Source: Amylostereum areolatum
Lineage: Eukaryota; Basidiomycota; Agaricomycetes; Russulales; Stereaceae
Direction: 5' to 3'
Length of the DNA stretch: 64,000 nt
Assembly (NCBI GenBank): GCA_012932865.1
Contig: SAXG01000036.1
Coordinates: 124,001-188,000 of the forward strand
Every line of letters starts with the position of its first letter. Position 1 is the first letter of the stretch. The position numbers and the translations under genes are program-made. The notes beneath the pieces were generated by a model. It made no database searches, was not told the origin of the DNA, and was given only the letters and a program-made list of their open reading frames with translations. Below are positions 10,119 through 48,539 of this stretch, in pieces.

Positions 10119-10481
10119 GAGACTGTCACGGTTCGCCCTTTTGCTCCGCTTTTTTCTTGCTTTCTTGCGCTATCTGATCTCACACCTGTGGATCAATCCC
10201 CTTTGATGGCATCGCTGATGTGCCCCTTGGTCTGTGCACATCCCCTCCCTAGTATATATAGCTGGCCTGCATGTATCTAGTTCCTTAGTCTTTCCTCCTA
10301 GTCTTTACCGGCTTAGAGTGCAATGTACTGTTCTCCCTTTGTTCCCTGATTCCCCCTTCCTCTGAGCCACTGCCTGTGTCGCGACTTAGAAGGCTATTGG
10401 ATGCATTCCTTAGTCGGTCGTTCTAGGGGTCATAGAACAAGTGGAAGTGCATCAAAAGTGTCGCGAGGTAGAAGTAAGAAG

Positions 10482-10670
10482 AGTCTTTCCTAATGTCAAG
10501 AACGACCGACTAAGGAATGCATCCAATAGCCTTCTAAGTCGCGACACAGGCAGTGGCTCAGAGGAAGGGGGAATCAGGGAACAAAGGGAGAACAGTACAT
10601 TGCACTCTAAGCCGGTAAAGACTAGGAGGAAAGACTAAGGAACTAGATACATGCAGGCCAGCTATATATA
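10482..10670 (-). promoter_or_regulatory. TATA box, inferred RNA start and self-complementary primer site of family P
   Basis: On the minus strand the TATA starts at 10670 and AGTCTTTCCT starts at 10636, exactly 34 nt further. The LTR ends at 10494; after two bases (TT) comes AGGAAAGACT (10491-10482), the perfect reverse complement of AGTCTTTCCT. This is the arrangement of Tf1-type self-priming. The RNA start itself is inferred. Confidence 0.7.
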
Positions 10671-10799
10671 CTAGGGAGGGGATGTGCACAGACCAAGGGG
10701 CACATCAGCGATGCCATCAAAGGGGATTGATCCACAGGTGTGAGATCAGATAGCGCAAGAAAGCAAGGAAAAAGCGGAGCAAAAGGGCAAACCGTGACA
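10494..10799 (-). repeat. Complete LTR of family P
   Basis: 306 bp, begins TGTCAC and ends TTGACA on the minus strand. It has a TATATATAG box whose first T is at 10670. The left arm (10124-10424) is the same LTR in the opposite orientation, with its TATA at 10253 and the same 34-nt spacing to AGTCTTTCCT. Confidence 0.8.
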
Positions 10800-10968
10800 G
10801 AGACACACTGAAACATTTTGGCGAGGCTGAAGATTAGCTAACTCTGGCTCTGGGCAAAAAAAAACTTAGGGGTCTTGAGGGCTTTCTGTCGACGGCCATC
10901 TTCCCTTCCAATTATCCTGGAGTCAACGGGCCCGCTGTTGCTCTGTCCTACCCTTCTTTCCCCCGACA

Positions 10969-13936
10969 ATGGGGCTCGACCTCGACACTCTCGGGATCTG
11001 CCTTCAAGATGACTGCAAAACGTCCGGAAAAGGCAAAAGGCACCAGTTCTGCCCAGCCACCGACCTCCTAGACGAGTCTGGCATCGACCCCAACTCTCCT
11101 TGTGACCTCTGTGGCCATGCTGCCATTTTTCACTTCACATTCCCGGTGCGTAGCTATATGTTCTTGCAATGATTTCGCTCAATGAAGTCATGCAGACTTC
11201 GACCCCTTTTACCCGACCTGATCTCCCTTCCACTTCCGCTCCTACCTCCTCTTCTTCCTTCCCCATCCCCCCCCAAAATCCCTCTTCTTCATCGAGTGGG
11301 AAACCCGAAAGCCACAGCAAAACTCATGAGGCGATGGGAAAATTTCGACAGTCAAAATACCAAGGCAATGCATGGACTGAGATGGCCAAAAAGTGGACGG
11401 AGGCTCAGGCAGGTGGATCGTTCTCCTTGGGAGGCTCATCGTCATTTGATCCATCGGCAAAGGTGCATTGGGTGTTTATCTATCAACGATGCCGTCTCAT
11501 GTTTGAATCATCTAGCACCGAGAGCAAGCGGCAGCTCAGAAAGGCAGTGACCATTGACGTGATCGCAAGCGGAACCGCAAGAAAGGGACATCCGGCAAGG
11601 AAAAGACTACAACTCCGACATCAGCAGCCAGCAAAAAAGCGAAGACAAAGGCGGTCACATTCACTATCGTGCTGATGCCCCCGACTTCGCTCATACACAA
11701 GCAACCACAGTCGATGTGTGCAAAGCCAGACCCCTCAAGGTACGTTTGGGAATGACTATCAATATAATTTCTGCTGACTATGCTTATCCGCCAGGTTTCA
11801 AGACTTAGACGATGCAATGTTTGTGCGTGAAGCCACCGTTCAAGATGACGAAGATGCCGTAGCCATTGATCAGACTATCGTCAAGCTTTTCTCTCACATC
11901 CCTGCACTTATAGCTCATGACCGTGCGGTGATGCGCAATATACACGACAAATGGACACGCGGTTGGACACCTTTGCGTGTTATCACTCGAGGCAAGGGCC
12001 GGCTTGGTCGGTTGCAGCCTCTGGACGAGATCCTGCCTGTGACATTGCAGTCTCTATTACGGTGAGAATTCTTGTGTGATCTACTACTTTTTTCGGCCAC
12101 TGATTACAAATGTCTGCTTATACTCTAGGGCTTCATCAAATACGAACATCCGTAACATCAAAGGTTATCCGAACATCCTGTTTATCGGCGTATCCAGCGG
12201 CGGTCAGGACATCCCCTACAGTGGGACCGGCACCTTGGATCTGGCCAGGGAGGATGACGACGACAATTCTAGCAGCAATGAGAGCCGTTCAGGTGGCAAC
12301 ATGGGTGATGGAGATGTAGACGACGTTGGCAGCGACAGCAATAAAGTGCGTGGTACTTGCTCTTATCTTTTAGTAACTTATTAACCCGACGAGTTAGAAA
12401 GCCGAGGACGGCACTGCACCCAACGATGACAACAAGCTGTCTGAGTCGTCTGATCCTCCTGCCGCATTCAACGAGGTGAGTCATAAAACATGTACTATAC
12501 TGGTTTGGCTATGAGCTCATCTCTTCCTCAGACACCCAGCTATGACACCAGCCACTCGGATAGCTTGGACTTGGACGAGATTGACCCGGGAACGGTCGAC
12601 AATGAATTCAACCATGGTTCCTCCACGCTGCCGAGGTCCCACGTCCTCCTGATTTGTTCTTTGCACAATATGCACGCACCGAGCGGGCCTGCAATATAGG
12701 TGTGTCCATGTCGTTTTTTTTCTGGTCTATAGCCCTCTTTCTAACAACCGATCAAGTGGCCGTTGAACGCCCCAACCAGCAACGAGTTTAGCAGCGCTAT
12801 CAAGGCTTGCGACTATCTAGACTTCACGATCGAATTTTGGTCAGGCCCCGCCATGAACACTGCCGACGTATGGACTAAAGCTGGGGAGGGACTGATCAAA
12901 AGCCTCGATTTCATCCGTGTTCTGGATCTTCGCCTTCTCGACCTTCAATTGCTTATCTCTGAGGTTGGAGACGACGAGAGAGGACATATTCTGGAAGCCA
13001 TTCTTCCAGAGATTGCATTTGGCGAGTACGGTTTGGGGCGGATAGTCCCATCGCTTTCCATTCTGTACCAGCTGGTGGCCTCACTACCTCCCAGTATGGC
13101 AACACTTCAGGCGGGACGCTGGGCGCGTCTTCTCCGGTTTTCTATGGCCCTCCGTCGTCTTGTGCATTGCTTCAAGGAGAACACGTCGCGAACACTCTAT
13201 GACCCGCTCAGCTTTCGCCTCCTGGGGCTTGAGATAGAGAAAGCGATGAAAGGCAAAAAACTTTTTGTAAGTGTCCTCTCTTTGACTGTACACGATAGGA
13301 TAGACTACACTCTTACCTGCATTTAGGACGCGACAATAGAACAATGGGAACGTCTCCTCATCACCAAATTGTCGTTCAGTACCGCATCTCCTGAAGAGAT
13401 AAAGGAGGCGTTGGACGAAGACTTTGGACATTCTTCCGATCCTTCTCTTATATGGCCGTCGGCGCTTCGTGGTGGTTCCTTTGGTCTCCCTTTCTTTTTT
13501 AGCCTCGTTATAGCGCCGTTCCTCGACCAGTTCCCTGTCGATCACGAACATTTCTCCGCTTTCTTTGCGATCTTCGACGTGTTTTCCCAAGCGCTCACAG
13601 TGAAGATACAGAGATTCTTCAAGGTACGACAGCTACCTTGTATCCAACTCGTTGCTCATATTTAATCTCTCTCTATTATCCTTCTAGAGTGGTAAAGGTC
13701 AGGCTTCCTCCAAAACACCCGATGACACCACCAAAAAGGATAAGAGAAAGCGAAGCGAAACAGACGATGCTCCAGATTCCGTCCCCGGTGATGGTGCATC
13801 TGGCAAGGAGCCACCTCCATTGCGGTGTTCTGGGAGAAAGCGTGCATGCACTGAGGCTGAGGAGTCGACTGAACAGGCAGAGGGATATGGAGAAAAGTCT
13901 GGGGGTTCGGGGTCTGCGAAGAAGTACGAGCTTTGA
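10969..13936 (+). CDS. Large multi-exon protein of unknown function with N-terminal Cys cluster
   Basis: Starts MGLDLDTLGICLQDDCK. The first exon has paired cysteines (CLQDDC, QFCPATD, SPCDLCGHAAIFHF) that could bind zinc. Later exons give a Ser/Pro/Gln-rich stretch, a segment LFSHIPALIAHDRAVMRNIH followed by RGWTPLRVI, GFIKYEHPNIRNIKGYPNIL, an acidic Asp/Ser region, then a leucine-rich helical region from about 12763 to 13620 (FWSGPAMNTADVWTKAGEGL, LLDLQLLISEVGDDERGHIL, VSPFxxF-like end). The tail is Lys/Glu-rich and ends at TGA 13934-13936. Roughly nine exons with consistent GT..AG borders suggest a real gene. I do not recognise the family. Confidence 0.55.
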
Positions 13937-13985
13937 TTTATCGCTCCCTTGATGTTGTCAATAAACAAACACTTTCACTGATAGT

Positions 13986-14819
13986 ATGCCCTCCAAAACA
14001 CCACCGCTCTTTAACCCAAGCGCGAGCGATGATGAGACGGACTTTAACATGCAAGACTTTATTGACGAGTTGGAAAAAGGCATGTCAAACGAGTTTCAAG
14101 TGCGCCCGCATCTACTAACTGTCTTAAAACACCTCTTTGTAGAAAACTTCGACCTCTGGAAGGACTGGGACAAACATGAACGACAAAAGAAAGACTCTCG
14201 AGGTAAAGTAGCATTGTTCTGATTGATGCACCTGCGTCGTTGATAGAGTCTGCTTTCTTAGAATTTGCCGGCTTGTTCAATGAGGAGCCCGCTACCGCCG
14301 AACAGCCGTCTTTCACTTCACCCATGTCACCTATGTCACCTTCTCCTCCAACAGATGCCGAGTCTTCGAGCGAACCTGACATTGAAGTTGTCTCCCCTCC
14401 CTCAACGCCATGGCCTAGCAAGCCGAAAAAGCAAAACTCGGAGGAGATAGTAGAGGCGCGGTTGCGCCGTGAAGAGGCTGAGCTGAAGGCGGCTCACAAG
14501 CTTCAGGACATCTTGGTTTGGAATGTCCTTGTCGCCAAGATCTTGGACAACTTTGAACATCCGGTCTCTGAGATACGCAATTCCTTGGTGCAAGGTATAA
14601 AATCTAAGTCTCCTCGTGAACAATTCTATGCTCTCCAACGGGTAGGAGTTCTCTGCCTTACTAACAGTGTGCACAGCATGCTTACCCTGTTTACACAAGG
14701 CTTACCATCCAGACAAGAACACCAAGAATAGGGTCGCTCGCACGGGCCATTGGGCAGCAGTATGTGAGGAAATCGCAAAGGCGTTGAACTTGAGAGCCCC
14801 ACATCGTTGTCGTAGCTAA
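13986..14819 (+). CDS. Small protein with J-domain-like HPD segment
   Basis: Starts MPSKTPPLFNPSASDDETDF, 50 bases after the stop of the previous gene on the same strand. A Ser/Pro-rich middle (TSPMSPMSPSPPTDAES) is followed by a long charged helix (SEEIVEARLRREEAELKAAH) and, across an intron at about 14642-14696, the C-terminus ALQRAYHPDKNTKN...HWAAVCEEIAKALN. The HPD tripeptide in YHPDKN, with helices on both sides, is the hallmark of DnaJ J-domains, which stimulate Hsp70 ATPase. Here it sits at the C-terminus and the preceding helix is unusual, so it is a J-like protein at best. Ends at TAA 14817-14819. Confidence 0.55.
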
Positions 14820-15041
14820 AAATGTTTATTGTCACGGGTTTATTCGTAAAGTGGCTCTCATTATGGCATAGACAAGGTAGCTATAGTATGCTAAAGGTCA
14901 ATGAATCACAGTATTGTTATTTGCTCTCAAGAAGAAGGTGAGAGAAGGACTCTCGACGAGTAGCAGACTCTGGAGTCAGTGCATGAGAGAGGACACGCGT
15001 CCGCTTATGTAAGTGTGCACTAGAGGGCACTGGACTTATAT

Positions 15042-15164
15042 GGATTACAAAGGTCGCTTAATCTGGTCCAATAGGCTCAAAATTGCAGATTTAGGACTAT
15101 CTAGGACCAGGCTATCAGACAAAAATAAGTTGAGCAAAATTGTATTAACAAAATAACGCTGGGT
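15042..15164 (+). repeat. Left terminal inverted repeat
   Basis: Begins GGATTACAAAGGTCG; contains ACAAAAATAAGTTGAGC at 15119-15135. Pairs with 31264-31384. Confidence 0.55.
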
Positions 15165-15687
15165 GTGCCGGGCTCAGAGCCCCCACTGCAGGTCATGTGA
15201 CTCCACCACTCATACTTCACTCTATACCACCATACCACCGCACTCCGCGCCCCGCCAATCTCTTTGTTTATCATTACAACCCTCACAAGTGAATCCTCCT
15301 TGCCATATCCGTCCATTCGCGCAGAAGATCGCCTGCATTGAATTCCCACCACCCGCGCGCATACTCTTCTCAGCCTGTGTCCTTCTCCACTTCTCCACCT
15401 GTGTAAGGGACGCAAGCTGGATGGCCTGCAGCAGCGATCACCACCTCTGTGTGCACGTCGAACACGGAACCGGGCTCCGAACGAACTTCTAGGCGAGTCT
15501 CGCTTCTCGCAACCGCTTCTCGCAACGGAAATGGATGGCCAACACTCACTTCGCGCTGCCCCCACTGGATCACCTTCGTGTGAGATGATCTGAACCTCGG
15601 CCAGAGGGACTCTTTCCTCCCCCATCTCATTCCTCTTCCCGACCACATCACCATCTCACCATCGACCAGTCCTTCCATGGCTCCACC

Positions 15688-16065
15688 ATGGCTCCCCCGT
15701 GTACGCCGCTTGCAATGCCGGCATCAACACCAGTGTCAACCGCTTCTACAGCCAACACAGTGTCTGCCTCTTCCGCCGTGCGCTCACCGTTCCAACACCC
15801 GGATTTCTGCAAGATCCCCTCGTGGGAGCGCGCCCGTTCGTGCAGGCGCGCTCACCCTAAGTAAGTACACATCCCCGAGCTGGACCTCATGTGCCACCTC
15901 CTCGCTAACTTCTTCTACCTTGGCGGAGCCGTCTGCCCGCTCTTCCACCGGCCCACGTTCAAGCAGGAGGTCGTGGACGGCCTCAACCTCGTTCGTGCTC
16001 CTGCTCGGTATACGGTCCGCCACCTCCAGCACATCGGCCACCACCCCTACCTTCCCACCCTCTAG
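15688..16065 (+). pseudogene. Fragment of a fungal-specific transcription factor domain
   Basis: From ATG 15688 the frame reads through a Ser/Thr-rich start, then SPFQHPDFCKIPSW, a TAA (15862-15864), and continues HIPELDLMCHLLANFFYLGG followed by AVCPLFHRPTFKQEVVDGL. The PLFHRPTF signature with the preceding xxxDL...YF helix is the start of the fungal-specific transcription factor domain (PF04082 type) found downstream of Zn2Cys6 fingers. The expected continuation is scrambled and the frame stops at TAG 16063-16065, twelve bases before the LTR of element A. No Zn2Cys6 cluster is present. It is clearly a dead fragment. Confidence 0.6.
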
Positions 16066-16076
16066 CGGGCTCACAC

Positions 16077-16497
16077 TGTCACGGATCGCTCCATTTCTTT
16101 CTTCGTTTGCAGACCTTGTACACGCGACACATCACGGCACATGACTTTCCTTCGCATCACATGCTCCAACGATGTCATTGCCCGGACTTCCGAACGGTGT
16201 TCCGCATCCTTATCTATGACATCATTGCTCCGGACTTCCGTCCTCCTCCCCATGACTCCTTTCTTATTGTTCCCCCTGCTCGCACCACTATCGCATCGCA
16301 TCGCACCATCGTTCCCACTTGTATATAAGGACAGTATCCCTTTTCCCTTTTCCTCAGACTGTCCATCTCGTCATACGGTACTGTAGCGCACGTTGCACTA
16401 CCCTAGACCCCGGCACTCTCGAATCTATTTTCTTCTCACTCCTCCCATCGTCGCGACTTAGGCGGTTCATCGGTCTCATAAACTGCGTTTCTGACAC
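16077..16497 (+). repeat. 5' LTR of element A
   Basis: 421 bp, TGTCACGG...TTTCTGACA. TATATAA at 16322-16328; the inferred RNA start AGACTGTCCA is at 16356. Confidence 0.9.
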
Positions 16498-16509
16498 CTG
16501 GACAGTCTA
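16322..16509 (+). promoter_or_regulatory. TATA box, inferred RNA start and self-primer site of element A
   Basis: TATATAA begins at 16322 and AGACTGTCCA at 16356, 34 nt further. The LTR ends at 16497; after CC comes TGGACAGTCT (16500-16509), the perfect reverse complement of AGACTGTCCA. Fits Tf1-type self-priming. Confidence 0.7.
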
Positions 16510-16510
16510 C

Positions 16511-17113
16511 CCCTACGCCTACCTCGCACCCCTCTCTCCATCTACCTCTGCCGTCTCTACGACGTTAAAAACTCCCACCACGGACCTCCCGAATGCACCG
16601 GTTTTCCTCCCGTTCAACGGAAAGCCGATCACTCCCCGCGACGACGCACCACTCCCCTACCCTTGGTCCGACGCTGTCACCGTCAACTGCCTCGTCCCCG
16701 TACAGAACCTCTGCAAGAAAGATCCCTGGACCGCACACGGCCTCAACTTCCGCATCTTCGAGTGGAGGTGGCACAAGGATCACGGTACTGTCGTCCTCGC
16801 CCTATACGTCCGGATCACTACATGCATCAACGTAGATCTCGAACGCCTTGAATTCACCCTCCACGCCCCCACCTACCACACATACCTCATCCAGGACGCC
16901 CCCAACCCGATCCTCCAAACCAGATTCACCTCCGTCTCCCAGTTTAACCGCCGGACCCCCGAATCCACCCTGCCACCAGTCCTCCGTCCCACCATCAAGG
17001 GTAAGACCCTTCGTCGCCGCCACCACGAACATAAGATCCGCCAGGCAGTAAAAGCCAGCTACCTCACCAAGAAACTCCTCGGCCGTCGCCCCATCGCGGC
17101 GGACTTCTTCTAG
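16511..17113 (+). pseudogene. ORF1 of element A (upstream of gag, start codon not found)
   Basis: The frame is open from the primer site to TAG 17111-17113 (about 200 codons) with no ATG in that frame. It contains KKDPWTAHGLNFRIFEW and a Tyr/Arg-rich stretch, ending in a basic segment (KTLRRRHHEHKIRQAVKASY) and RRPIAADFF. The KDPW..H block resembles KDPWAWHNW in ORF1 of element B, suggesting a shared N-terminal domain. It lies in the same frame as gag; after the TAG the frame stays open for 197 codons up to the gag Met. The TAG may be original or a CAG-to-TAG change. Confidence 0.5.
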
Positions 17114-18730
17114 ACCACCATCACGTCCTCCACAGCCCCTCGTCCCCCCACTCCGAACCTCCCCCCAGGCGTTTTTCGAGACTACTGTCCCGAAGAATAC
17201 TATATCCTCACCTCGCAGCAGACTAAGGAATCCGTACATTGGCTGCACGACGAACCAAACCGGCAACGTCGAGACTGGTACTTCGACGACCGCAACGAAC
17301 AACCCTACGTCGAAGAATCGGATTTTGCCACCGCTGCGGACGTTCTACAGTGCTTCCTGAACCCCCCTCCGACCAACTCGCCCCCACCCCGTCGACGTAC
17401 TGTAATCGAAGTCCCAGAAGGGATCAACCACAACAACACAACTGGGAAGTGGTACGCCTATAGACGGAACAAGAACGGAACCCCAGGACGATCAGTAGTT
17501 GAGTGGCAGCCCACTTCGTTCAGTCCCGTCCAAGATCACTGGTCGTGGCATCATAACCAGCAATTCCTCACCCCCGCCGACTTCCTTGTCGCAAAACAAG
17601 TTGAGGACGAAGTTGAAGAAGCAGAAGAACGCCGACGAGAAACCCTACGCCGCCTTGATCAAGAACTCGCCCAATCCCTCACCGTCCCCCTCCCCTTCGA
17701 CAAGATGTCCGACGCTGAATCCAAACCTGCCGTCTCCAAGCGGGAGATCGGCCCCAAGCCAAAGCCATTCAAAGGCGATAGACGCGACACCCTCCGGTTC
17801 TCCCTCGAGCTCCGCATGTTCCTGCGCGTTAACAAGGATGTTTATGCCACAGATGACGCCAAGATGATGCTCCTCCTCAGCCTGATGGAGGACGACACGG
17901 CGAAAGCCTGGGCCACACATCGCCGCATGGAACTCTTCGCCGACGAAGACGAGAAGGAAGACGCCGACACCCTCGACCCCACGCCCCCAACACTCCACTA
18001 TAGCTCCTACAAAGAGCTCTTCGAGAGGTTTGGCAAAGACTTCGTGCCCGTCGATCCGAAGATAGAGGCTCAGCGTAAGATCAACGAGCTCGCAATGACC
18101 ACCCGGGACGTCACTGACTTTATCACCGAGTTTGAGATGCTGGCAACCATGTCAGCGTACGACGACGAGGCGCTAATCCACTTTTTCAAGAAGGGACTTC
18201 AGCGTGACCTCGGCAAGCAGGTGGCCCGGTCGTACCTGTTCCCCACCAAGCTCGCGGAGTGGAAGGAGCGCGCCCGCCGCATCAACCACCAGTGGCTCGA
18301 AGAGAACCCGGAGAGGAAGAGCAGTCAGTCCAAGGGGGCTGTCGCGCTCACCTCAAACGGTTCGACCAACGACTCCTCGTCGCCCCGAGTCGGCGCCTTC
18401 ACCAACACCTCGACCCGCCCTGCAAAGCTGACGGACGACGAGCGCGCAAAGATGATGCGCGAAGGCAAGTGCTTCATGTGTCGACAAGCCGGTCACGTCT
18501 CTCGCGACTGCCCCAACCGCGACTCGAGCGCGCGACGGGTGGGCGCAGTAGAGACTGGGTCCAAGGCCCCCCCCCTGCCGACGAACACGGCTCCGTCCAC
18601 TGCGAAAGCAGCTCCCGACCCATCCAAAACCATCGCGGCGATCACTCGCCAGCTGAAGGATCTGGACGCGGAAGGCAAGGAGCAGGCAGTAGCGCTGTTG
18701 AAGGACATCCTGGAATCGCAGGATTTTTGA
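17114..18730 (+). CDS. gag: Gag of element A
   Basis: Structural protein of the retroelement particle. The frame is open from the TAG at 17113, but the first ATG in any frame is at 17705 (MSDAESKPAVSKREIG), which gives 341 residues. The capsid-like region shows FKGDRRDTLRFSLELRMFL and ELFERFGKDF...ITEFEMLA typical of retrotransposon gag. A CCHC zinc knuckle (CFMCRQAGHVSRDC) sits near residues 256-269. The protein ends ESQDF at TGA 18728-18730, embedded in GGATTTTTGA where pol continues in the -1 frame. The 197 codons before the Met include an acidic coiled-coil-like segment (VEDEVEEAEERRRETLRRLD) and may be translated by readthrough. Confidence 0.8.
   Translation, partial: TTITSSTAPRPPTPNLPPGVFRDYCPEEYYILTSQQTKESVHWLHDEPNRQRRDWYFDDRNEQPYVEESDFATAADVLQCFLNPPPTNSPPPRRRTVIEVPEGINHNNTTGKWYAYRRNKNGTPGRSVVEWQPTSFSPVQDHWSWHHNQQFLTPADFLVAKQVEDEVEEAEERRRETLRRLDQELAQSLTVPLPFDKMSDAESKPAVSKREIGPKPKPFKGDRRDTLRFSLELRMFLRVNKDVYATDDAKMMLLLSLMEDDTAKAWATHRRMELFADEDEKEDADTLDPTPPTLHYSSYKELFERFGKDFVPVDPKIEAQRKINELAMTTRDVTDFITEFEMLATMSAYDDEALIHFFKKGLQRDLGKQVARSYLFPTKLAEWKERARRINHQWLEENPERKSSQSKGAVALTSNGSTNDSSSPRVGAFTNTSTRPAKLTDDERAKMMREGKCFMCRQAGHVSRDCPNRDSSARRVGAVETGSKAPPLPTNTAPSTAKAAPDPSKTIAAITRQLKDLDAEGKEQAVALLKDILESQDF
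18722..18730 (+). other. Putative -1 frameshift site gag/pol, element A
   Basis: GATTTTTGA: gag reads GAT TTT TGA; pol reads TTT TTG AAA one base earlier. The same T5GA lies at the gag end of elements B and C. Confidence 0.55.
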
Positions 18731-19907
18731 AACGCCCCCCAGTCGCGTCGTCTGGTGGAGGCAAAGGACTTTTGGTATCATCGTCGAATCGTTTCGCTGT
18801 ATTATCATCCATGCATACCTGTGAGCAATCGTATCCCCCGTGTTTGTATCTGTCTACTGTCACCAAGAACAGGCAAACACCATCGATCACGCTCAAAGTC
18901 AAGCTGATCGGACGAGTTACCAAAAGAGAAATCGACGCAGATGCGCTGCTTGATAGCGGCGCAGAAGGAATTATCCTGAACCGAAGCTTCGTTGAACGCA
19001 AGAAGCTCACCACAAGAAAACTAGAAAACCCGTTCCCCGTGCGTAATGTGGATGGCACCGAGAACGTCATGGGCTGGGTACGCGACACAACGACCCAGCG
19101 GATCCGGATATACTCGCAAGATTCAAGGGCGTACCATGAGGAAGAAGCTGAGTTCTTCATCACCGACATCGGCGATCATGACATGATCCTTGGAACAGAC
19201 TGGCTCGACGAGCACAATCCCACCATAGACTGGCAGCGAGACCGTGTTGACATGCTCCGCTGCCCTCCCTCGTGCACTCTGTCCAAACCTCCTGTGACGA
19301 ACCTCGCAACCAAGCCACGGAAACCATCATCGGTCCAATCACAGCGTAAGGTTGAAGCAGGTAAAACCCCGAGGACACCTCTCGTCGTGGACGATCCCTT
19401 CCCAGAGCCGACATATGTGTCCTGGACCCCAGTCCCCACTTATGTTATTCCTGCATGCAGAGTCAAAGGTGTTCGCATCCGCACGGTCCATCGCTCCCCT
19501 CTACCCGCACGACTCTTCACTGAAGACGACGACGAGCGGCCCATGGTATTCCGAGACTGGGAGATCAATGGACTACGCCGCGCCGGAATCCTCCCTGAAA
19601 CCGATGGTCCTAATCCAGATGCAATACCCATCCGCGCGGGCTTTACAAAAGCGCAGGAGCTTGCAGAGCATTCAAAAGAGAACGCACGCCCGCAAACCTT
19701 TGAAGACTTAGTCCCCCCGCCGTACCGCGACTTTGCGCCTGTATTCGACAAGAAAACCTCCGAGCGACTTCCTGACCGACGGCCATGGGACCATGCTATC
19801 GACATGAAAGACGGCTTTGAACCCAAACCGTGCAAGATCTACCCCCTCTCACCGTCCGAGCAGATCGAACTTGACACCTTCCTCGACGACCACCTGAAGA
19901 AGGGCTA
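18729..19907 (+). CDS. pol: Pol of element A, N-terminal part (protease and start of RT)
   Basis: Frame -1 to gag. The aspartic protease active site is LLDSGAEGIIL, with the flap-side IGDHDMILGTDWL and HNPTIDWQ further on. The RT lead-in reads RPWDHAIDMKDGFEPKPCKI followed by YPLSPSEQ and DDHLKKGY, where the frame is cut at 19907 by insertion of element B. It resumes at 27428 with IRPSKSPQASPFF. Confidence 0.85.
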
Positions 19908-20364
19908 TGTCAGCAACGACTAGTGCGACAGCACCAAGTTACGACAAAGCTGACAGAGGAAGAGGACGACAGAGGGGAGCCGATCAGACACGGCGACAGA
20001 CAAGGGAAAGCAAGCAAAGTCGGTAGAATTGACTAGCTCGAGATAAGGAATATGTACAGCGAGAGCGAGCCTTATATACACAAGAGGAGAGAGACTTAGG
20101 TAAGCAACCAATACACGGCGATCAGTAAGCAGACCAAGTATAAGTAAGCAGTCGTATGTAAAAGAGCACAGCATGAGTCAGTATCGTACAGCATGAGTCA
20201 AGAGAAAGGAGTCAGACCCGGACCGAGATGAGTCACGTGGGTCCGGGCGGGATATAGATGAGCCGGGTCCGGGCCAAGGTGGAGCCGGACCGGTGATAAG
20301 TCGATAAGTCCTAAAGCGTGTAACCGATGTAAAGTAAAAAGAAAATTATAGACCGTTCATGACA
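19908..20364 (-). repeat. 3' LTR of element B
   Basis: 457 bp, nearly identical to the 5' LTR. Preceded on the minus strand by a polypurine tract AAGGAAGGGGTGA (20377-20365). Confidence 0.92.
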
Positions 20365-23300
20365 TCACCCCTTCCTTAGATTCGACGTCCTCGTCGTAAT
20401 CAGATCCAGTTTCTTCCTCCGACAGGAGTTTCCAACGATTAAGGCGTGCAGGTTTCGGGGCACCCGGATGTTCACGGTGGAAGTCGTCAATGCGTTTCTT
20501 GGCATTCTGGAGATTGGTGAGAGGCTCCCAAGTATTGTCATTGTCTGGGTAGCCTTTCCATTTGACGAGGTACTTGAAGCCGCGACCAACCTTCTTGGAG
20601 TCTATAATCTTTTCGACCTCATAGACTTCCTCTCCTTGGACTAACTCTGGCGGTGGAGGTGTAGGTGCTTTCTGATTGTCAAAGGCGGGACCGTTGTGTG
20701 GAGATAGGAGGGACTCGTTGAAGACCGGATGTTTTCGTGACCAGGATGTAGGGAGGCGAAGCTTGTAAGCCGATGCTCCGACTTTTTCCAGGATTTCGAA
20801 AGGACCAAAGCGCTTGTCATCTAGCTTTTGCATAGGACGTGCCGTTTTGATTACGGTTTGGCCATCTCTGGTCTTGGCTTCCAGCCAGACGAAGTCGCCA
20901 ATTTTGTAATCTATTGGTTCGTCCTTCTTGCGATCGTAAAAGCGCTTTTGATCGTCCTGTGCTGCCTTTAGCGCAGAGCGGGCTTCCTCATAGATGTCTC
21001 GCATGCGTTGTGCAAACTCGTTCGCCGATGGGTTGTCTGTCTCACGTCGAGGGTTTGTCCCCAGGTAGAGTTCCCGACCATAGTTGGCAAAGTTGGGAGA
21101 CATCCCAATCGAACTATGGACCATGTTGTTGAGTGCAGTCATGGCAAGTGGGAGGTAACGTGTCCAATTGTCCTGTCGTTGATTGACGAAGATGCGAAGG
21201 TAGTTTTCCATGGTCATGTTGGAGCGTTCGGTCTGTCCGTCCGTCTGAGGGTGATACGCCGTGGACGGGTTCCCTTCAATGCCTAACAGTTGGAACAATG
21301 CTGTGGTGAATTTGGAGACAAACACGCTGCCACGGTCGCTGACGATCTTTCTAGGAATTCCATGATGGGGGACCACCTCGCGTAGGTACTCGAAGGCGAG
21401 TTCGTCCTCCGTTAGGTCTTTGGTCGTGGCCCAGAATACAACCTGCTTGGTACCCATGCAGTTCACATTGCAGATGGCGTCTTTTCCATCCGAGACTGGG
21501 AGCGGCATGACAAAGTCGATGGATACATGCTCCCAAGGCGCTTGTGGCGGGTCATGTGGGTGGAGTGGAGCGGCAATGCGATCATGTCTAATCTTGGTAC
21601 GTTGGCAGGTCTCACATCCTTCAACATATTTCCGGACATCGTCTCTAATGGCAGGCCACCAGTAGTTGCGCGTGATGAGCTCATGGGTCTTGTATCGTCC
21701 TGGGTGACCGACAAGCGGGCCGTCATGATGAGCTTGGATGATGTCTGCACGGAGTCCTTTGTCTCTTGGGACATAGAGTCTGTGTTGCCAGGTGATCGTT
21801 CCATCTGCGTGTTCCAGCCATCCCTTCACTTTGAGTGCTAAGGCGCGTTCTACTGCATGGTCTCGGAGTAAGGTAGCCTCCTGAATCCGCTCAATGAAGA
21901 TATTGTCAGGTCCATTGGTTATAATTCCTGCATGGTTGAGGGCGCGAAAGAGTTCTGGTTTCAGGAGGACAATGTTTTCATTGTCTTTCTCCCCCTTCTC
22001 AAGGCCCGCTAGTCGGGAAATAGCATCGGGTTTACCCATTGTTTTGCCAGGCTTGTGGAGTAGCGTACAATGATACTCTTGTAGCTCCGTTAACCATCGT
22101 GCTTGTCTCCGATTTAGCTTCTGCGCCTTGCGGAAGTACGTGAGATTGCGATGATCCGACCAGATTTCAAACTCCTGTCGTGCCCCCATGAGGTATTGTC
22201 TCCATTCCTCTAGCGCCGTCATGATAGCCAGTAATTCCTTGTCATAAATCTCATAGTTCCTCTCAGCTTCGCTGAGGGACTTTGAGAGGAAGGCGACCGG
22301 GTGCCATTTGCCATTGTCCTGTTGTTGCGAAAGTACCGCGCCCGTGGCATAGTCAGAGGAGTCCGCCTCGACACGGAACTGTCCATCGTCTGTAGGGATT
22401 GCTAGAACTGGCTGCGATGTTATACGTCGCTTGAGTTCCTCAAAAGCCTCCTGCTGTGGGGTGTCCCAGACCCATTCCGTCTTCCCAGTGAGTTTAGTCA
22501 TTGGGTGAGCAATGCCACTGAAGTCCTTGATAAAGCGACGGTAGAAGTTGCAAAAGCCCAAAAATGATTGAAGTTGTTTCTTCGTTTTGGGGGCTGGCCA
22601 ATTGGTGATTGCCGCGACCTTTGCTGGATCCATGCGAACCCTTCCTCCGCCGACAATCATGCCCAGGTATTCGATTTCTGCCTTCTCAAACTCGCACTTT
22701 TCTGGCTTCAGATAGAGTTTGTTTTCTCGCAGGATCCGAAGGACCTCCTTGACTATTCGACGATGTTCTTCTAGCGTATGTGTGAAGATGAGGATGTCGT
22801 CCAAATAGACGACCACGACTCCTTGGTGGATCAAGTCTTTGAACAGGTCATTCATCATGGCTTGGAACGTAGACGGGGAGTTGGTGAGTCCAAAGAACAT
22901 GACCGTAGGCTCGTAGAGACCTTTGTTCGTGCGGAATGCAGCTTTCCACTCGTCCCCTTCTTTAATCCGAACATTGTTGTACCCCCATCGGACATCGAGC
23001 TTGGTAAAGTGCCGTGCTCCTTTAAGTTTGTCAACCAACTCTTGGATGAGCGGGAGCGGGTAACGGTTCTTTATTGTCATCTCATTGAGCTTTCGATAGT
23101 CCTGCACAGGACGTAGCGAGCCGTCTTTTTTCTTGATGAAGAAGAATGGGGAGGCCATGGGTGATTTGGACGGTTGGATCCGGCCAGATCTCAGGTTCTC
23201 TTCCAGAAAGGCGTCCAGTTGCTTCTGCTCGTCCAATGTGAGGGGGTAAACTTTGCAATCAACCGGTTTGAAGTTAGGAGTGAGCTCAATGGCGTGGTCC

Positions 23301-24532
23301 CATGGGCGTCGCTCAGGGAGCTTGTCGAAGTCGTCTTTGTCAAAGATGTCCTTGAATTCGTGGTACGCCGTTGGGACTCGCTCAGAGAAGGTCTGTTCCT
23401 TTTTCTTAGCGTGCTCTTCAATTGCAATGTCCGATGCATGGGTCCGGATGTGGTATGTCGCTTTGTAGCCATCCCAGTCGAAAGCAAACAGCTGCTCGTC
23501 CTTTTCCATGTGGACTGGCTCTTCCTCCTCCTCTTCATCCTCATCGATATTGAGGAGGGGAGGGGGACGAGAGCAGCTGATAGGGCATCGGTCAAATTCA
23601 ATTGACCCGGATTTCCAGTCGATGTGAGGGTTGTGCTTCTTTAGCCACTCATGTCCAATGAAAAGGTCCGTATCTCCTAGATTGGAGACCGCCAGGTCAA
23701 TGTTTTCTTCATGGTCTTGAATATTTAGGCGAAGTGTGACATATTCCGTAATGGGACCTCCTGTGTTGAGAGTGCCGTCTGCATTTCGTACTGGGATTGG
23801 GCGAGCAGTCCGTCGCGTGGGGATGTGATTTTCCTGCACAAACTTCGTGTTGATACACGAGCCAGTGCAACCACTGTCCAGGAGTGCGAGAGCTTTGACA
23901 ATGCGTTTGGAATCTACCACCAGTTGTGTGGGAATGACCGTTTGTTCCTTGGCGCTGGCGGAGCGTATGAACTGCATAGGAGTGGCGAGCTCTAGTAGAG
24001 CTTGACATGCTAACTCGTCTCCCATGCCAGTTATTTCCTTGATGGCTTCATAAGTAGCCTCGTCACGGCGTCGGTGGTGTGTCCAGATGCGAAGGATTGC
24101 AATCGCACTTTCGGGTTTGTCTTCCCTTAAGCGACGAAGCGTCCATTGAGCCGTTCCAGGTGCCATATAACATGATTTGGGCGCCGTGCCCCTTCCATCG
24201 CACGGCGTTGTCCCTGACTTCACAGGGTCCATATCCAAAACCGAGTCCGTATCCAAAGCCGTATCCAAAACTGAAGCCGAAACCGAAGCCATATCCAAAG
24301 CCGAAGGCTCACAAATCGAGGCCTGAGTATCTAAAATAACAACGGGACGCGTGCCCGTACCGATAGAGTCCGTAAGAGAAGTCATAATGGGGATATCCCC
24401 CGTAGTAGTACAGTCCGAATCAACAATGCGCATATGTAAACGAGAACCAGGCCACCGAGGCGCCACAAAACCAGACGAGCGAGAAACAGAAACTTGGGCT
24501 TCAGATGCCGTGTACATCGTCAGCCCCCTCAA
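20357..24532 (-). CDS. pol: Pol of element B: protease, RT, RNase H, integrase, chromodomain
   Basis: 1391 codons, uninterrupted, entered by -1 shift (the frame opens with TTG, not ATG). Protease LLDSGCTGSCI near residue 219; HEWLKKHNPHIDW after it. RT: SLRPVQDYRKLNEM, LDVRWGYNNVR, catalytic VVYLDDILIF near 577. RNase H: VEADSSDYATGAVLSQ and YEIYDKELLAIMTALEEW. Integrase: HHCC finger (VGHPGRYKTHEL...CETCQRTK) and DDE core (SIDFVMPL, IVSDRGSVFVSKF, STAYHPQTDGQTERSN). A C-terminal chromodomain (YEVEKIIDSKK...YLVKWKGYPDNDNTWEP) would direct integration to modified chromatin in known chromoviruses. All catalytic residues are present. This is the only apparently functional pol in the window. Confidence 0.93.
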   Translation of the reverse strand: MRGLTMYTASEAQVSVSRSSGFVAPRWPGSRLHMRIVDSDCTTTGDIPIMTSLTDSIGTGTRPVVILDTQASICEPSALDMASVSASVLDTALDTDSVLDMDPVKSGTTPCDGRGTAPKSCYMAPGTAQWTLRRLREDKPESAIAILRIWTHHRRRDEATYEAIKEITGMGDELACQALLELATPMQFIRSASAKEQTVIPTQLVVDSKRIVKALALLDSGCTGSCINTKFVQENHIPTRRTARPIPVRNADGTLNTGGPITEYVTLRLNIQDHEENIDLAVSNLGDTDLFIGHEWLKKHNPHIDWKSGSIEFDRCPISCSRPPPLLNIDEDEEEEEEPVHMEKDEQLFAFDWDGYKATYHIRTHASDIAIEEHAKKKEQTFSERVPTAYHEFKDIFDKDDFDKLPERRPWDHAIELTPNFKPVDCKVYPLTLDEQKQLDAFLEENLRSGRIQPSKSPMASPFFFIKKKDGSLRPVQDYRKLNEMTIKNRYPLPLIQELVDKLKGARHFTKLDVRWGYNNVRIKEGDEWKAAFRTNKGLYEPTVMFFGLTNSPSTFQAMMNDLFKDLIHQGVVVVYLDDILIFTHTLEEHRRIVKEVLRILRENKLYLKPEKCEFEKAEIEYLGMIVGGGRVRMDPAKVAAITNWPAPKTKKQLQSFLGFCNFYRRFIKDFSGIAHPMTKLTGKTEWVWDTPQQEAFEELKRRITSQPVLAIPTDDGQFRVEADSSDYATGAVLSQQQDNGKWHPVAFLSKSLSEAERNYEIYDKELLAIMTALEEWRQYLMGARQEFEIWSDHRNLTYFRKAQKLNRRQARWLTELQEYHCTLLHKPGKTMGKPDAISRLAGLEKGEKDNENIVLLKPELFRALNHAGIITNGPDNIFIERIQEATLLRDHAVERALALKVKGWLEHADGTITWQHRLYVPRDKGLRADIIQAHHDGPLVGHPGRYKTHELITRNYWWPAIRDDVRKYVEGCETCQRTKIRHDRIAAPLHPHDPPQAPWEHVSIDFVMPLPVSDGKDAICNVNCMGTKQVVFWATTKDLTEDELAFEYLREVVPHHGIPRKIVSDRGSVFVSKFTTALFQLLGIEGNPSTAYHPQTDGQTERSNMTMENYLRIFVNQRQDNWTRYLPLAMTALNNMVHSSIGMSPNFANYGRELYLGTNPRRETDNPSANEFAQRMRDIYEEARSALKAAQDDQKRFYDRKKDEPIDYKIGDFVWLEAKTRDGQTVIKTARPMQKLDDKRFGPFEILEKVGASAYKLRLPTSWSRKHPVFNESLLSPHNGPAFDNQKAPTPPPPELVQGEEVYEVEKIIDSKKVGRGFKYLVKWKGYPDNDNTWEPLTNLQNAKKRIDDFHREHPGAPKPARLNRWKLLSEEETGSDYDEDVESKEGVMS

Positions 24533-24537
24533 AAACC
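24529..24537 (-). other. Putative -1 frameshift site gag/pol, element B
   Basis: Minus strand GGTTTTTGA: gag GGT TTT TGA, pol TTT TTG AGG. Identical in the second copy at 57332-57340. Confidence 0.55.
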
Positions 24538-25785
24538 CTCCTTCTTCTCCTCCACCTTCGGCTGAGCTTGAAGCGCGTCCATCACGCTTTTCCGATCTTC
24601 GGCCGACAGGCTCCTAGCCCAGGCGGTGGGCGTCTCGAACGTCTGTGCTCGAGCCTCCCGCTTTGGTGGTTCCGTGTACCGGTCCCTCCCCCACATGTCT
24701 CGGATGTTCTTCACGTCCACCCTGCAGTCCCGCACCTGGTGGCCATTCTGTCCGCAGCGGAAGCATCGCCCCTTGATGTCGACACGGTTGACGTCCATCG
24801 GCTGACCTTTGCCACCGTGCACCGTGCCGGTTCCATCGCGGCGCCATGGGACCTGCCCCCCTTGTTGCCCATTGGACGATCCTTGTCCTTTGGGTTTTTG
24901 GTTCTGCACGGGTCCACTGCGCTGGGTCTTAAGGTCCTCCCGCTCCTGTCGCAGACCGTCGATCAGGATGATGCGCTCTTTGAGGTCCTCATATTTCTGA
25001 GGAACGTGACCGCTGTCGTAGATGGAGTCGATGGTCCGATAGTAGACGTTGTGTTTGAGCAGCTGCATGAGGTGGATAGGGTCCTGCGCCGTGGAGTATC
25101 CTGCCTTTCTTGCGAGTTGCTCGAACTTGGCGAAGTATTCATGGGCAGTGGTACCCTTCGTCTGTTTGAACCCGTCCAGTTCGACTGCGGCACGGTGCTG
25201 CTCATTGACGTCGGTGAAGGCCCCTTTGAGTGCTTTGTGGAAGTCCACCCAGGCGACCATGGCTCCATTGGCCAAGTGTGCATCCTCATACTCGGCCTTC
25301 CAGGTGCGTGCTGCCTCCCCCGTCATGTAGGTGAGAATGAAGAGGACTTTGTCCTTGTCCGTCACGAGGTCATCCTCAGCAGCTCGCATGTATTCCTCGC
25401 ACGACCGCATCCAGTCATTGAAGTCCTCTCGTTTCCCAGAGAAGCCTTCAGGAGTTTTCGCGTGGACTTTCTTTCGGGGGGGTCTGGCGGCGGCGGCGGC
25501 TGGGGCACTAACAGTGACCGCAGGGGGGTTGACGGTGATGGGGGGGGCCGTGACGTTGACGGTGGGGGGTGGCAGGTTGAGGGCAGCAACAAGCACGGCA
25601 GGGATGGCGACCCATTGGCCATTTACTTCCATGAGCCAGGCATCGTCGGTGCCGTTATTCATGTGTTGGATGGGAGAGCCAGTTTGGCCGATGACAATGT
25701 TCCATGTTCCACCGATTTCGGTGCAGTTGGCAAGTTCGGCGGGGAGAGGGGGTTGGGGGTCGGTGCGGATCCACTGGGCAGCCAT
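24529..25785 (-). CDS. gag: Gag of element B
   Basis: 418 residues from ATG 25785 (MAAQWIRTDPQPPLP), the next AUG in any frame after that of ORF1. A Pro/Val/Thr-rich linker (VNVTAPPITVNPPAVTVSAP) precedes the capsid-like region (GFSGKREDFNDWMRSCEEYM, LTYMTGEAARTW, EYFAKFEQLARKAGY). The CCHC knuckle CFRCGQNGHQVRDC is near residues 340-355. Ends KKEGF at TGA 24531-24529 inside GGTTTTTGA, with pol in the -1 frame. Upstream the same frame stays open 102 codons to the ORF1 stop. Confidence 0.88.
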   Translation of the reverse strand: MAAQWIRTDPQPPLPAELANCTEIGGTWNIVIGQTGSPIQHMNNGTDDAWLMEVNGQWVAIPAVLVAALNLPPPTVNVTAPPITVNPPAVTVSAPAAAAARPPRKKVHAKTPEGFSGKREDFNDWMRSCEEYMRAAEDDLVTDKDKVLFILTYMTGEAARTWKAEYEDAHLANGAMVAWVDFHKALKGAFTDVNEQHRAAVELDGFKQTKGTTAHEYFAKFEQLARKAGYSTAQDPIHLMQLLKHNVYYRTIDSIYDSGHVPQKYEDLKERIILIDGLRQEREDLKTQRSGPVQNQKPKGQGSSNGQQGGQVPWRRDGTGTVHGGKGQPMDVNRVDIKGRCFRCGQNGHQVRDCRVDVKNIRDMWGRDRYTEPPKREARAQTFETPTAWARSLSAEDRKSVMDALQAQPKVEEKKEGF

Positions 25786-26091
25786 GATTGGTTCGTCGAG
25801 GTCGGAGAAGTCTTCGTCGGTGACAGGCGGTAGGGCGGAGGCGGCGATGAGGTTGAAGTCGGCTTCAGTGAGGTCGTCTTGGCTTTCGTTGGCGAAGTAC
25901 CAACTGATGCCACTTGTTTGGGTTGCTACGAAGGCGACTTCGACAGTGGTGTCTCCGAGTTGGACAAAGAAGTCGTTTCCTCGTTCAGTGAAGCCTAGAG
26001 GGAGGGGATATATGTAGCAGTTTTCGTCCTCAACGTCGGTGTCGGAGTCAGAACTGGAGTCGGAGCCGTTGAGTCCGAACGAGGGAATTGT

Positions 26092-26493
26092 TTATAAGTG
26101 GGTGAGGTCGATGACCTCTGGCTGGGTGAGGTCGATGACCTCTGGCTCTGGTGTGGGGCTGGGGGTGTTGCCTGGTGTAAGGAGGCGGTGGGTGTGTCGA
26201 GTGTCTACTGGTATTTTCTCGTTGGGCGCGTAGAAGGATTTTGGGGGTTGCTCGAGTTTGTAGCGGTAGGTGACGTATGGGCAGGAGTAGACGTAGAGGT
26301 TTCCGTTTCCTTGTTCGCTTATTTTGAGGCGATAGAAGTGGATGTCTATGATGGAGTCTTCAAGTTCTTCTACACCGAGGGCGACCTTCCAATTGTGCCA
26401 GGCCCAAGGGTCTTTAGATTCGTTGATGAGGGAGATGATAGCGTCGTGGCTGATGGGGATGAATTCTTGTACTTGCGAGCGCCAATCTTCCAT
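26092..26493 (-). CDS. ORF1 of element B with tandem SUMO-interacting-type motif
   Basis: 133 residues from ATG 26493 (MEDWRSQVQEF), the first AUG I find after the inferred RNA start at 27101. An N-terminal globular part has SKDPWAWHNWKVALGVEELE, IIDIHFYRLKI and YVYSCPYVTYRYKLEQPP. A Pro-rich linker leads to the end PEVIDLTQPEVIDLTHL and TAA (26094-26092). VIDLT is a textbook SUMO-interacting core; it is present twice because of a 24-bp direct duplication (26101-26148). The frame is the same as gag: after TAA there are 102 open codons without Met, including GSDSSSDSDTDVEDE, then gag. Function is unknown; SUMO binding is inference from the motif. Confidence 0.65.
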   Translation of the reverse strand: MEDWRSQVQEFIPISHDAIISLINESKDPWAWHNWKVALGVEELEDSIIDIHFYRLKISEQGNGNLYVYSCPYVTYRYKLEQPPKSFYAPNEKIPVDTRHTHRLLTPGNTPSPTPEPEVIDLTQPEVIDLTHL

Positions 26494-26952
26494 GCACGAG
26501 CCCCCAGTCGAAATGGTTACTCTGTGCGGCAAGGGAAGATTTTGTCGAGGGAAGGTGGTTCTGTTATGAGATCGCAAGACGGTCTGCCTCAGTCTTCTCG
26601 ACCTGTTGGCTGTCTCTTCGTCTAGGGGACACGAGCCCAAAGACTTCCTAAACCGCTTTCCTTTCGCCGCTTTTACTCGTTTCCTACACCAAAGGTGCAC
26701 CTTCTACTGTCACCTCTGAGCTTTCAACTCCTGGTATTGGAGAGTCTCGAGTAGGTGTAACGTTTCGAGGAAACGTCAAGCCGGCACCGGTATACGTGCG
26801 CACGACCACAATGTCAGGGTAACGAGTCGCGTACTCTGGGGGCAACGGTCTAGGGCGGCACGGGGGAAGAACAAGGTCAGTACCAGACGGGTACTACTAC
26901 TACTACGCTACAGTACGTAGGGACGGTCGTAGGGTGGTGCAAGAGTAAACAG

Positions 26953-27135
26953 ATCTCGAGCTTATGTCAGCAACGACTAGTGCGACAGCACCAAGTTACG
27001 ACAAAGCTGACAGAGGAAGAGGACGACAGAGGGGAGCCGATCAGACACGGCGACAGACAAGGGAAAGCAAGCAAAGTCGGTAGAATTGACTAGCTCGAGA
27101 TAAGGAATATGTACAGCGAGAGCGAGCCTTATATA
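26953..27135 (-). promoter_or_regulatory. TATA box, inferred RNA start and self-primer site of element B
   Basis: First T of TATATAA at 27135, ATCTCGAGCT begins at 27101, exactly 34 nt further. After the LTR end (26965) and two bases (TA) comes AGCTCGAGAT (26962-26953), the perfect reverse complement. The primer site is followed by an AUG-free leader. Confidence 0.72.
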
Positions 27136-27422
27136 CACAAGAGGAGAGAGACTTAGGTAAGCAACCAATACACGGCGATCAGTAAGCAGACCAAGTATAA
27201 GTAAGCAGTCGTATGTAAAAGAGCACAGCATGAGTCAGTATCGTACAGCATGAGTCAAGAGAAAGGAGTCAGACCCGGACCGAGATGAGTCACGTGGGTC
27301 CTGGGCGGGATATAGATGAGCCGGGTCCGGGCCAAGGTGGAGCCGGACCGGTGATAAGTCGATAAGTCCTAAAGCGTGTAACCGATGTAAAGTAAAAAGA
27401 AAATTATAGACCGTTCATGACA
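26965..27422 (-). repeat. 5' LTR of element B
   Basis: 458 bp; minus strand begins TGTCATGAACGG and ends GTTGCTGACA. TATATAA starts at 27135 and the inferred RNA start ATCTCGAGCT at 27101. Confidence 0.92.
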
Positions 27423-27427
27423 GGCTA

Positions 27428-30335: not shown

Positions 30336-30687
30336 CTTTCCCTTGCATCACATGCTTCAATGACGTCATTGCCCGGACTTCCGAGCGGGGTTCCGCATCC
30401 TTATCTATGACATCACTGCTCCGGACCTTCATCCTCCGCCCCATGACTCCTTTCCTATTGTTCCCCCTGCTCGCACCACTATCGCATTGCATCGCACCAT
30501 CGTTCCCACTTGTATATAAGGACAGTGTTTCTCTTCCCTTTTCCCTAGACTGTCCATCTCATCATACGGTACTGTAGCGCACGTTGCACTACCCTAGACC
30601 CCGGCACTCTCGAATCTATTTTCTTCTCACTCCTCCCATCGTCGCGACTTAGGCGGTTCATCGGTCTCATAAACTGCGTTTCTGACA
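30268..30687 (+). repeat. 3' LTR of element A
   Basis: 420 bp, same ends as the 5' LTR. TATATAA at 30513 and AGACTGTCCA at 30547 keep the 34-nt spacing despite divergence elsewhere. Confidence 0.9.
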
Positions 30688-47099: not shown

Positions 47100-47800
47100 C
47101 CACCACCATCCCTTCACCACCGCCGTCGCCACCATCGTCCCCCTCGCCACCATCGTCCCCCTCGCCATCGCCACCATCGTCCCCCTCGCCGCCTCGTCAC
47201 CGCCGCCGCCGCCGCCGCCGTTGCCACCCCGTCACCGCCGCCGTTGCCACCTCGTCACAGCCGCCATCGCCATCGTGTCACCGCCGCTGTCGCTGCCGCG
47301 TCACCGACGCTGTCGCCGCCGCGTCACTGCTGCCCTTGCCGCCTCGTCACTCCCGCCGTCACCACCTCATCACTCCCGCCCTCGCCGCCCCGTCACTCCC
47401 GCTCTCGCCGCCCCGTCACTCCCGCTCTCGCCATCTTCTCATTGTCGCCTTCACCGCCCCGTCACCGCCGCCCTGTCACCGCCACCTTCGCCGCCCCGTC
47501 ACCGCCGCCTTCGCCGCCCCGTCACCGCCGTCGCCACCTCGTCACCGCCGCCCTTGTCATCGCGTCACTCCCGCCCTCGCCATCTCCTCACAGCCGCCCT
47601 CGCCGCCCCGTCACAGCCGCCGCCCTTGTCATCACATCACTCCCGCCGTCGCCACCTCGTCACTCCCGCTGTCACTCCCACCGTCACCACCTCGTCACTC
47701 CCGCCCTCGCCGCTCCGTCACCGCCGCTGTCGCCACCACCATGGCCAGCCTCGCCACCAGTGCTGTCGGCGCCTTGTCACCCCTGCCGTTGCCGCCTCAT
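47100..47800. repeat. GC-rich minisatellite, imperfect 15-24 bp units
   Basis: Runs of CCGCC(C/G)TCGCC(G/A)CC(C/T)CGTCAC with variations, e.g. near 47380-47430 three almost perfect copies. It forces long Pro/Ser/His frames on the plus strand that I do not regard as genes. It lies between the Crinkler pseudogene and element C. Confidence 0.7.
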
Positions 47801-48518: not shown

Positions 48519-48539
48519 GTTTGGCGCAGAGCGTCAAAC
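48519..48539 (+). promoter_or_regulatory. Primer-binding region of element C, forms a hairpin
   Basis: Directly after the LTR, GTTTGGCGC AGA GCGTCAAAC can fold into a 9-bp stem (one G-T pair) with a 3-base loop. TGGCGC near its start is compatible with a tRNA 3' CCA primer, but I cannot name the tRNA. Confidence 0.45.

Follow-up and report, generated by a model that had tools for sequence, protein, structure and literature searches.

A stretch of 64,000 nucleotides (nt) of the Amylostereum areolatum genome (assembly GCA_012932865.1, contig SAXG01000036.1, positions 124,001 to 188,000 of the forward strand; hereafter the window, whose own numbering is used below) bears several long terminal repeat (LTR) retrotransposons in which the predicted 5' end of the RNA is complementary to the primer-binding site (PBS). 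Based on this arrangement, families A, B, C and D, the last found elsewhere in the genome, very probably use the 5' end of their own RNA as the primer for reverse transcription, like Tf1 of Schizosaccharomyces pombe, while P would be a coding-less miniature equipped with the same start module. In the mechanism that we propose, transcription would start at an A after a pyrimidine-rich motif, mostly TTCCYY, 34 nt (36 nt in D) past the first T of the TATA box, and the first ten bases of the RNA (R) could then pair with the PBS lying 2 nt past the 5' LTR. A pseudoknotted duplex between U5 and the sequence after the PBS, for which covariation was observed, would hold this fold. By analogy with Tf1, RNase H would cut after base 10, releasing a 10-nt RNA primer from which minus-strand synthesis would start, and P would be copied in trans by chromovirus enzymes.

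The initial annotation had reported, for A, B and P, ten bases lying 34 nt past the TATA box that are complementary to ten bases 2 nt past the LTR end, and this complementarity proved to be exact, with coordinates and strands right. Specifically, A (forward strand) has its TATA box at 16322-16329, the self-primer and predicted RNA 5' end AGACTGTCCA at 16356-16365 and the PBS TGGACAGTCT, 2 nt past the LTR end, at 16499-16508. The corresponding features of the first B copy, B1 (reverse strand), are located at 27128-27135 (TATA box), 27092-27101 (self-primer ATCTCGAGCT) and 26953-26962 (PBS AGCTCGAGAT), and those of P (reverse strand) at 10663-10670, 10627-10636 (AGTCTTTCCT) and 10482-10491 (AGGAAAGACT), respectively. 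The second B copy, B2 (reverse strand), has a perfect 10-mer pair as well, with its self-primer (59848-59857) 34 nt past the TATA box at 59891 and its PBS at 59708-59717; the 3' LTR of A (30513-30556, forward strand) keeps the TATA box and, 34 nt on, the same 10-mer, the spacing of both having been annotated. The 3' LTRs of B1 and B2 likewise show the 34-nt spacing and an identical 10-mer. A fourth family of the window, C (forward strand), had been overlooked. Its TATA box is located at 48208-48215 and its PBS AGAACGAGCT, 2 nt past the LTR end, at 48484-48493, and this copy escaped the exact-match scan because its self-primer (48242-48251, AGCTCATTCT) carries one base unlike the other C copies. 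Outside the window, C has the R sequence AGCTCGTTCT, the PBS AGAACGAGCT and a spacing of 34. The changed base of the window copy (R at 48242-48251) is a G to A within a CpG, consistent with the deamination of methylated cytosine. Family D, which has a longer frame, carries R ATCTCGACCT and PBS AGGTCGAGAT, which differ from those of B by a single compensatory pair. In the five families (A, B, C, D and P) the R:PBS duplex is exactly 10 bp long, with the neighbouring bases unpaired on both sides. Thus, of the length and spacing that had been taken as fixed across families, the length held for all five and the spacing is 34 in A, B, P and C but mostly 36 in D (36 in eight of ten copies, 35 once and 37 once).

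Concerning covariation, all 50 R:PBS cells of the five families are Watson-Crick pairs, and eight of the ten columns contain two or three pair types. When the PBSs were reassigned among families in all 120 possible ways, 50 matched cells were obtained for the true assignment only, the runner-up reaching 48. The 10-mers do not differ completely, as had been stated, since base 1 (A) and base 9 (C) are identical in all five families. Covariation within families was not seen, the copies being too alike and their R:PBS mismatches single one-sided changes. Taken by themselves, the 10-mers do not bear out the inference of selection that the initial annotation drew from compensatory change, as copying could keep R and PBS matched. 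It is established for tRNA-primed elements that, where replication is of the retroviral type, plus-strand synthesis extends over the primer, and the new PBS derives from this copy. A changed R base could therefore enter the PBS in one cycle, so that perfect 10-mer covariation can arise by copying. The covariation of the second arm, described below, is a better sign of selection, because that arm is not copied from the primer.

A second duplex was found in all five families, in which U5 pairs with sequence 8-15 nt past the PBS. Its architecture consists of a helix of 4 bp or more, a loop of 2-3 whose downstream strand reads CC, and a helix of 5 bp or more, and it was present in 5/5 families and in none of 20 cross-family combinations. 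The U5 and post-PBS arms are located at 16453-16464 and 16516-16527 in A (forward strand), 26988-27002 and 26926-26940 in B1 (reverse), 59743-59757 and 59681-59695 in B2 (reverse), 48436-48449 and 48507-48520 in C (forward), and 10531-10542 and 10463-10474 in P (reverse). All 45 pairs of the core are Watson-Crick and eight of its nine columns vary. Of the 19 later A-type stretches having R:PBS, 17 retain the strict form. Dinucleotide shuffles of single families produced the architecture at frequencies of 0.002-0.035. The second duplex crosses the R:PBS helix and would therefore form a pseudoknot, which ordinary folding cannot show together with that helix; judged from its sequence, it resembles part of the published Tf1 "pretzel". 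Tf1 requires an accessory duplex of this kind, and the five families supply naturally covarying versions of one.

Pairing alone shows no primer, and the second duplex would also fit a structure for packaging or translation. The R:PBS pairing could thus be real and serve RNA circularisation, packaging or dimerisation instead of priming. We consider this improbable, given that in each of the five families the downstream partner occupies the position expected of a PBS, 2 nt past the LTR, and that the arrangement is that of Tf1, for which priming has been demonstrated in the published accounts at hand (PMC7175516, PMC10085805).

The specificity of the arrangement was examined in a scan of the window that made no use of the TATA box and required that the reverse complement of a 10-mer lie 80-260 nt further downstream and 2 nt past an ACA; pairs within the P inverted repeat were excluded first. 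Of the five places returned, four are those of A, B, B2 and P, and the fifth, at 43339, is unrelated. In ten shuffled windows, each scanned on one strand, a single match arose in total. The register was tested in 330,324 bases, comprising the window and 98 loci, with overlapping loci counted separately. At the 2-nt register the family 10-mers made up 62 of 128 pairs (32 A, 14 P, 8 D, 5 B, 3 C). Gaps of 0, 1, 3, 4, 5, 6 and 8 gave 60-80 pairs each, and the family 10-mers were absent among the eight most frequent pairs listed. Many of these loci had been fetched for their resemblance to A or P, so it is the register that was tested and not the frequency. The window copy of P lies in a 99% inverted LTR pair, a source of many spurious pairs, which could suggest that inverted repeats or low-complexity sequence produced the matches artificially. 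This explanation is refuted by six two-LTR P insertions elsewhere, which carry the same pair without being palindromic; the register and shuffle controls were negative for it, and we regard its probability as next to nil.

Copies of the module were then sought in the whole genome (57.1 Mb, 182 contigs). The A 10-mer occurred 1,240 times, compared to 105 times for its reversed control, and the junction patterns (up to 3 mismatches) of B and C occurred 314 vs 29 and 221 vs 65 times, respectively. Places were included in a copy survey when their LTR-PBS junction had no more than 4/22 differences to a family and their R no more than 3/10. This gave 60 distinct places (32 A, 6 B, 7 P, 10 D, 5 C), with R:PBS perfect in 53 and with one mismatch in 7; R was not found at three further junctions (two A, one C). 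The spacing was 34 in 31/32 A, 6/6 B, 7/7 P and 5/5 C places, and 36 in 8/10 D places. Thirty of the A places had been fetched by similarity to a query containing R and PBS and are therefore not independent of it. The selection of copies by the position of their reverse transcriptase (RT) is a cleaner test. In the A-type set picked in this way the pair was perfect in 18 of 19 stretches, and one more stretch, chosen by its 10-mers, brings this to 19/20. In the B/D set the pair was present in 13 of 20 stretches (10 perfect, 3 with one mismatch), eight of the 20 having been picked as places without a listed exact B junction. Stretches selected as a possible sixth family proved to be of A type again. 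Viral contigs were also searched for relatives with flanking DNA, by means of the B RT region and a three-protein alignment, and none was confirmed.

Priming by host tRNAs would make the match between PBS and RNA start a coincidence or a leftover. The PBS of A begins with TGG, as the CCA 3' end of a tRNA would require, but those of B, C, D and P do not. In the tRNA set, which is partial (63 places scored of 1,434 candidates, 40 stretches fetched, 37 distinct tRNAs) and leaves the tRNA explanation some room, the R 10-mers match no more than 7/10 bases of any 3' end and no more than 8/10 anywhere. Additionally, a pattern combining the T-arm with an acceptor end suited to A has 12 exact places in the genome; three were fetched and ARAGORN found none of them to be a tRNA. 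With one mismatch allowed, this pattern was rarer than its reversed control (111 vs 239). Coincidence, moreover, is not expected to give 50 matched cells out of 50 over five families. Taken together, tRNA priming appears very improbable to us. Three copia families were also looked at, the LTR end or pair being present in the fetched pieces for two of them. Two copia families share one sequence right after the LTR, GGTTATGGGCCC, which we take to resemble an internal initiator-tRNA site; an initiator tRNA matching it was not found with a T-arm query that was poorly chosen. In the pieces fetched for one of these two (Co3), the best match to the complement of the post-LTR site was no more than 7/10 bases. 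An exact reverse complement of the copia site near the other (Co2) turned out to be an inverted copia end outside the LTR, the rest of Co2 being covered in part.

A number of observations weigh against self-priming and have to be set beside the evidence above. Both the RNA start site and the cleavage are deduced, from sequence and from the Tf1 analogy, and the partial coverage of the tRNA set counts here as well. The R:PBS pair was missing in seven of the 20 B/D stretches picked by RT position; five of these are without LTR similarity, one has a partial D LTR, and one has a D LTR with an intact R that is followed by other DNA. For the second duplex, the product of the larger single-family shuffle frequencies is approximately 1e-10, which is too generous because the architecture was fixed only after the sequences had been viewed. 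A plain best-duplex score was weaker, being reached by 60 (A), 90 (B), 5 (P), 3 (D) and 122 (C) of 1,000 shuffles. In single-strand folding, the R:PBS pairing probability was 0.95 for A, 0.87 for B, 0.88 for D and zero for C and P; leaders with a shuffled middle reached the observed value in 75 (A), 86 (B), 87 (D), 100 (C) and 100 (P) of 100 cases, every shuffled leader of C and P lying above it. Enforcing R:PBS in the longer leader cost 5.8 kcal/mol in C and 4.2 in P, compared to 0.2 in A and 0 in B and D. These folding models give R:PBS no independent support and, for C and P, speak mildly against it. Finally, the other accessory duplex described for Tf1, between PBS-adjacent sequence and the LTR, is unsupported; with the sequence 5' of the PBS set against the LTR end, the score was reached by 284 (A), 86 (B), 382 (P), 287 (D) and 106 (C) of 500 shuffles (17-76%).

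On balance, the Tf1-type self-priming proposed in the initial annotation stands as the best explanation, strengthened by two more families, by a second covarying duplex and by the lack of a match in the partial tRNA set. What did not stand is the universal 34-nt spacing, nor can the families be called unrelated, as A, B and C are chromoviruses of a single agaricomycete clade. In an RT tree of 25 of the 120 listed proteins (midpoint root; D and the named Tf1, sushi, MarY1 and Laccy sequences left out), these three group with proteins of Lyophyllum, Armillaria, Trametes, Pleurotus, Amanita, Phanerochaete and Peniophora (support 100/99). They fall on the fungal and vertebrate side, split from plant and algal elements with 100/100. 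The identity of the pol frames to B is 51% for C and 56% for A. For the RT region of B, the named proteins of highest identity (67-75%) are from agaricomycetes and the maximum of all is 82%, while vertebrate proteins (51-53%) lead by bits. MarY1 and Laccy are also clades of basidiomycete chromoviruses. The text available from PMC2864245 describes no PBS for these two clades.

The mechanism itself is already known from the Tf1/sushi group, which shares with the present elements a Ty3/gypsy pol with a chromodomain, complementarity between the PBS and the predicted start of the RNA, and a duplex between U5 and the vicinity of the PBS. There are also differences. The Tf1 primer is 11 nt long and is cut between bases 11 and 12 according to the relevant part of PMC7175516, compared to 10 nt here; only one of the two accessory duplexes was found here, and the host, judged from the named proteins of highest identity, is an agaricomycete. 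Self-priming is also predicted for the TAR-type copia elements of plants (Houba, Osr1), but these belong to another superfamily (PMC6317226, in its available sections). A self-primer was not found for the lycophyte element SM-Tcn1 (PMC2864245) nor for most Skipper chromoviruses (PMC5006619), as far as the accessible portions of these two papers go, and self-priming is therefore no universal rule. For the agaricomycete host group it is little described in the excerpts of the literature searched. Less ordinary than the mechanism are the covarying second duplex, the possibility that copying keeps the 10-mers matched, and a predicted self-primed terminal-repeat retrotransposon in miniature (TRIM), to which we turn below. 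In a self-primed element the RNA start is recorded in the DNA, and base +1 should be marked by the first base of the PBS complement. If confirmed, this would allow transcription starts of LTRs to be read from sequence and would provide a sharp test of promoter geometry in basidiomycetes.

By its structure, P is a TRIM. It consists of two direct LTRs of approximately 306 bp around 651 nt of non-coding sequence, about 1.26 kb altogether, and occurs in this form at six insertion sites with different flanks; the longest stop-free frame, in one copy, has 82 codons. Target-site duplications of 5 bp were recognized by eye at five of the six two-LTR insertions, the sixth (L042) being not clear, and a single P LTR was present at 17 of the 30 loci fetched. 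The copy in the window is not an ordinary element but an inverted LTR pair (99%) with a short spacer. This palindromic derivative (10124-10799) comprises a truncated forward LTR (10124-10424), the spacer and a reverse LTR (10494-10799), with the target-site duplication GAGAC. Over 10119-10804, GAGAC flanks both sides, which suggests that the palindrome integrated as a whole, with its two U3 ends pointing outward. P shares with TRIMs the direct terminal repeats, the non-coding interior and the target-site duplications. As described in the part of PMC6934838 available, a TRIM is shorter than 1,000 bp, its terminal repeats measure 100-250 bp and its PBS is complementary to a tRNA. P is longer (about 1.26 kb), as are its repeats (306 bp), and it carries a self-primer. 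Its PBS is complementary to its own predicted RNA start, and none of the partial tRNA set matches it. TRIMs are present in basidiomycete genomes, namely in Boletales (PMC5689174, in its available text), and the priming mechanism of bivalve TRIMs is called not clear in the same portion of PMC6934838. One limited literature search found no self-primed TRIM in print.

An autonomous parent of P was not found among the window and 34 loci, where its interior (first 25 matches listed) matched only the window P copy and short chance hits. P and A have the U5 motif GTCGCGACTTAG in common, and compensatory changes distinguish the second arm of P from that of A, a hint that the parent was A-like. Tentatively, the spacing from TATA box to start, the 10-nt primer, the PBS and the pseudoknot arm may form a transferable module, through which P exploits the chromovirus machinery, with the 10-mers kept matched by copying of the primer into a new PBS in each cycle, and hence able to drift between families without mismatched intermediates, and the arm held by selection; we regard this as possible, without preferring it to the contrary. 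If P is indeed a self-primed TRIM, a very short RNA would suffice for priming in trans.

Concerning the elements that carry the module, element A (16077-30687, forward strand; LTRs at 16077-16496 and 30268-30687) is a chromovirus interrupted by B1 (19908-27422, reverse strand), which is nested in it with the 5-bp target-site duplication GGCTA. B2 (52703-60178, reverse strand) is likewise nested in C, with the 5-bp duplication CTTAA, and splits the pol frames of C (50565-61981, forward strand) into 50565-52718, 60323-61108 and 61289-61981, the last with the chromodomain. RT, RNase H, integrase, SH3_Tf2-1 and chromodomain are present in A, B and C, which by these domains are chromoviruses; D, judged from its RT match and with its further domains outside the scan, is a Ty3/gypsy element. 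The two LTRs are 93.3% identical in A, 99.8% in B1 and 99.4% in B2. No target-site duplication was seen at the ends of A, and its two LTRs (16077-16496 and 30268-30687) differ between TATA box and R as two subfamilies do, with the spacing of 34 kept in both; for these two reasons A may be a recombinant of two subfamilies.

Further observations concern the surroundings of these elements and the copia families. A 23-bp tandem repeat array (47169-47666) lies immediately upstream of the promoter region of C. A reverse-strand open frame at 32994-33965, outside A, B1, B2 and C, matches the Pfam family rva_4 (integrase core). Elsewhere in the genome, copia RT matches recur at constant spacing (approximately 3.73, 4.00 and 4.28 kb) at C41:4367-30782, C148:185243-201713 and C85:71284-80125, which suggests tandem copia arrays. 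A multi-copy tRNA-like sequence was detected beside copia arrays at six loci (L118, L119, L120, L124, L126 and L128; contigs C148, C98, C1 and C131), and could represent either a repeat derived from a tRNA or a cluster of tRNA genes that copia targets.

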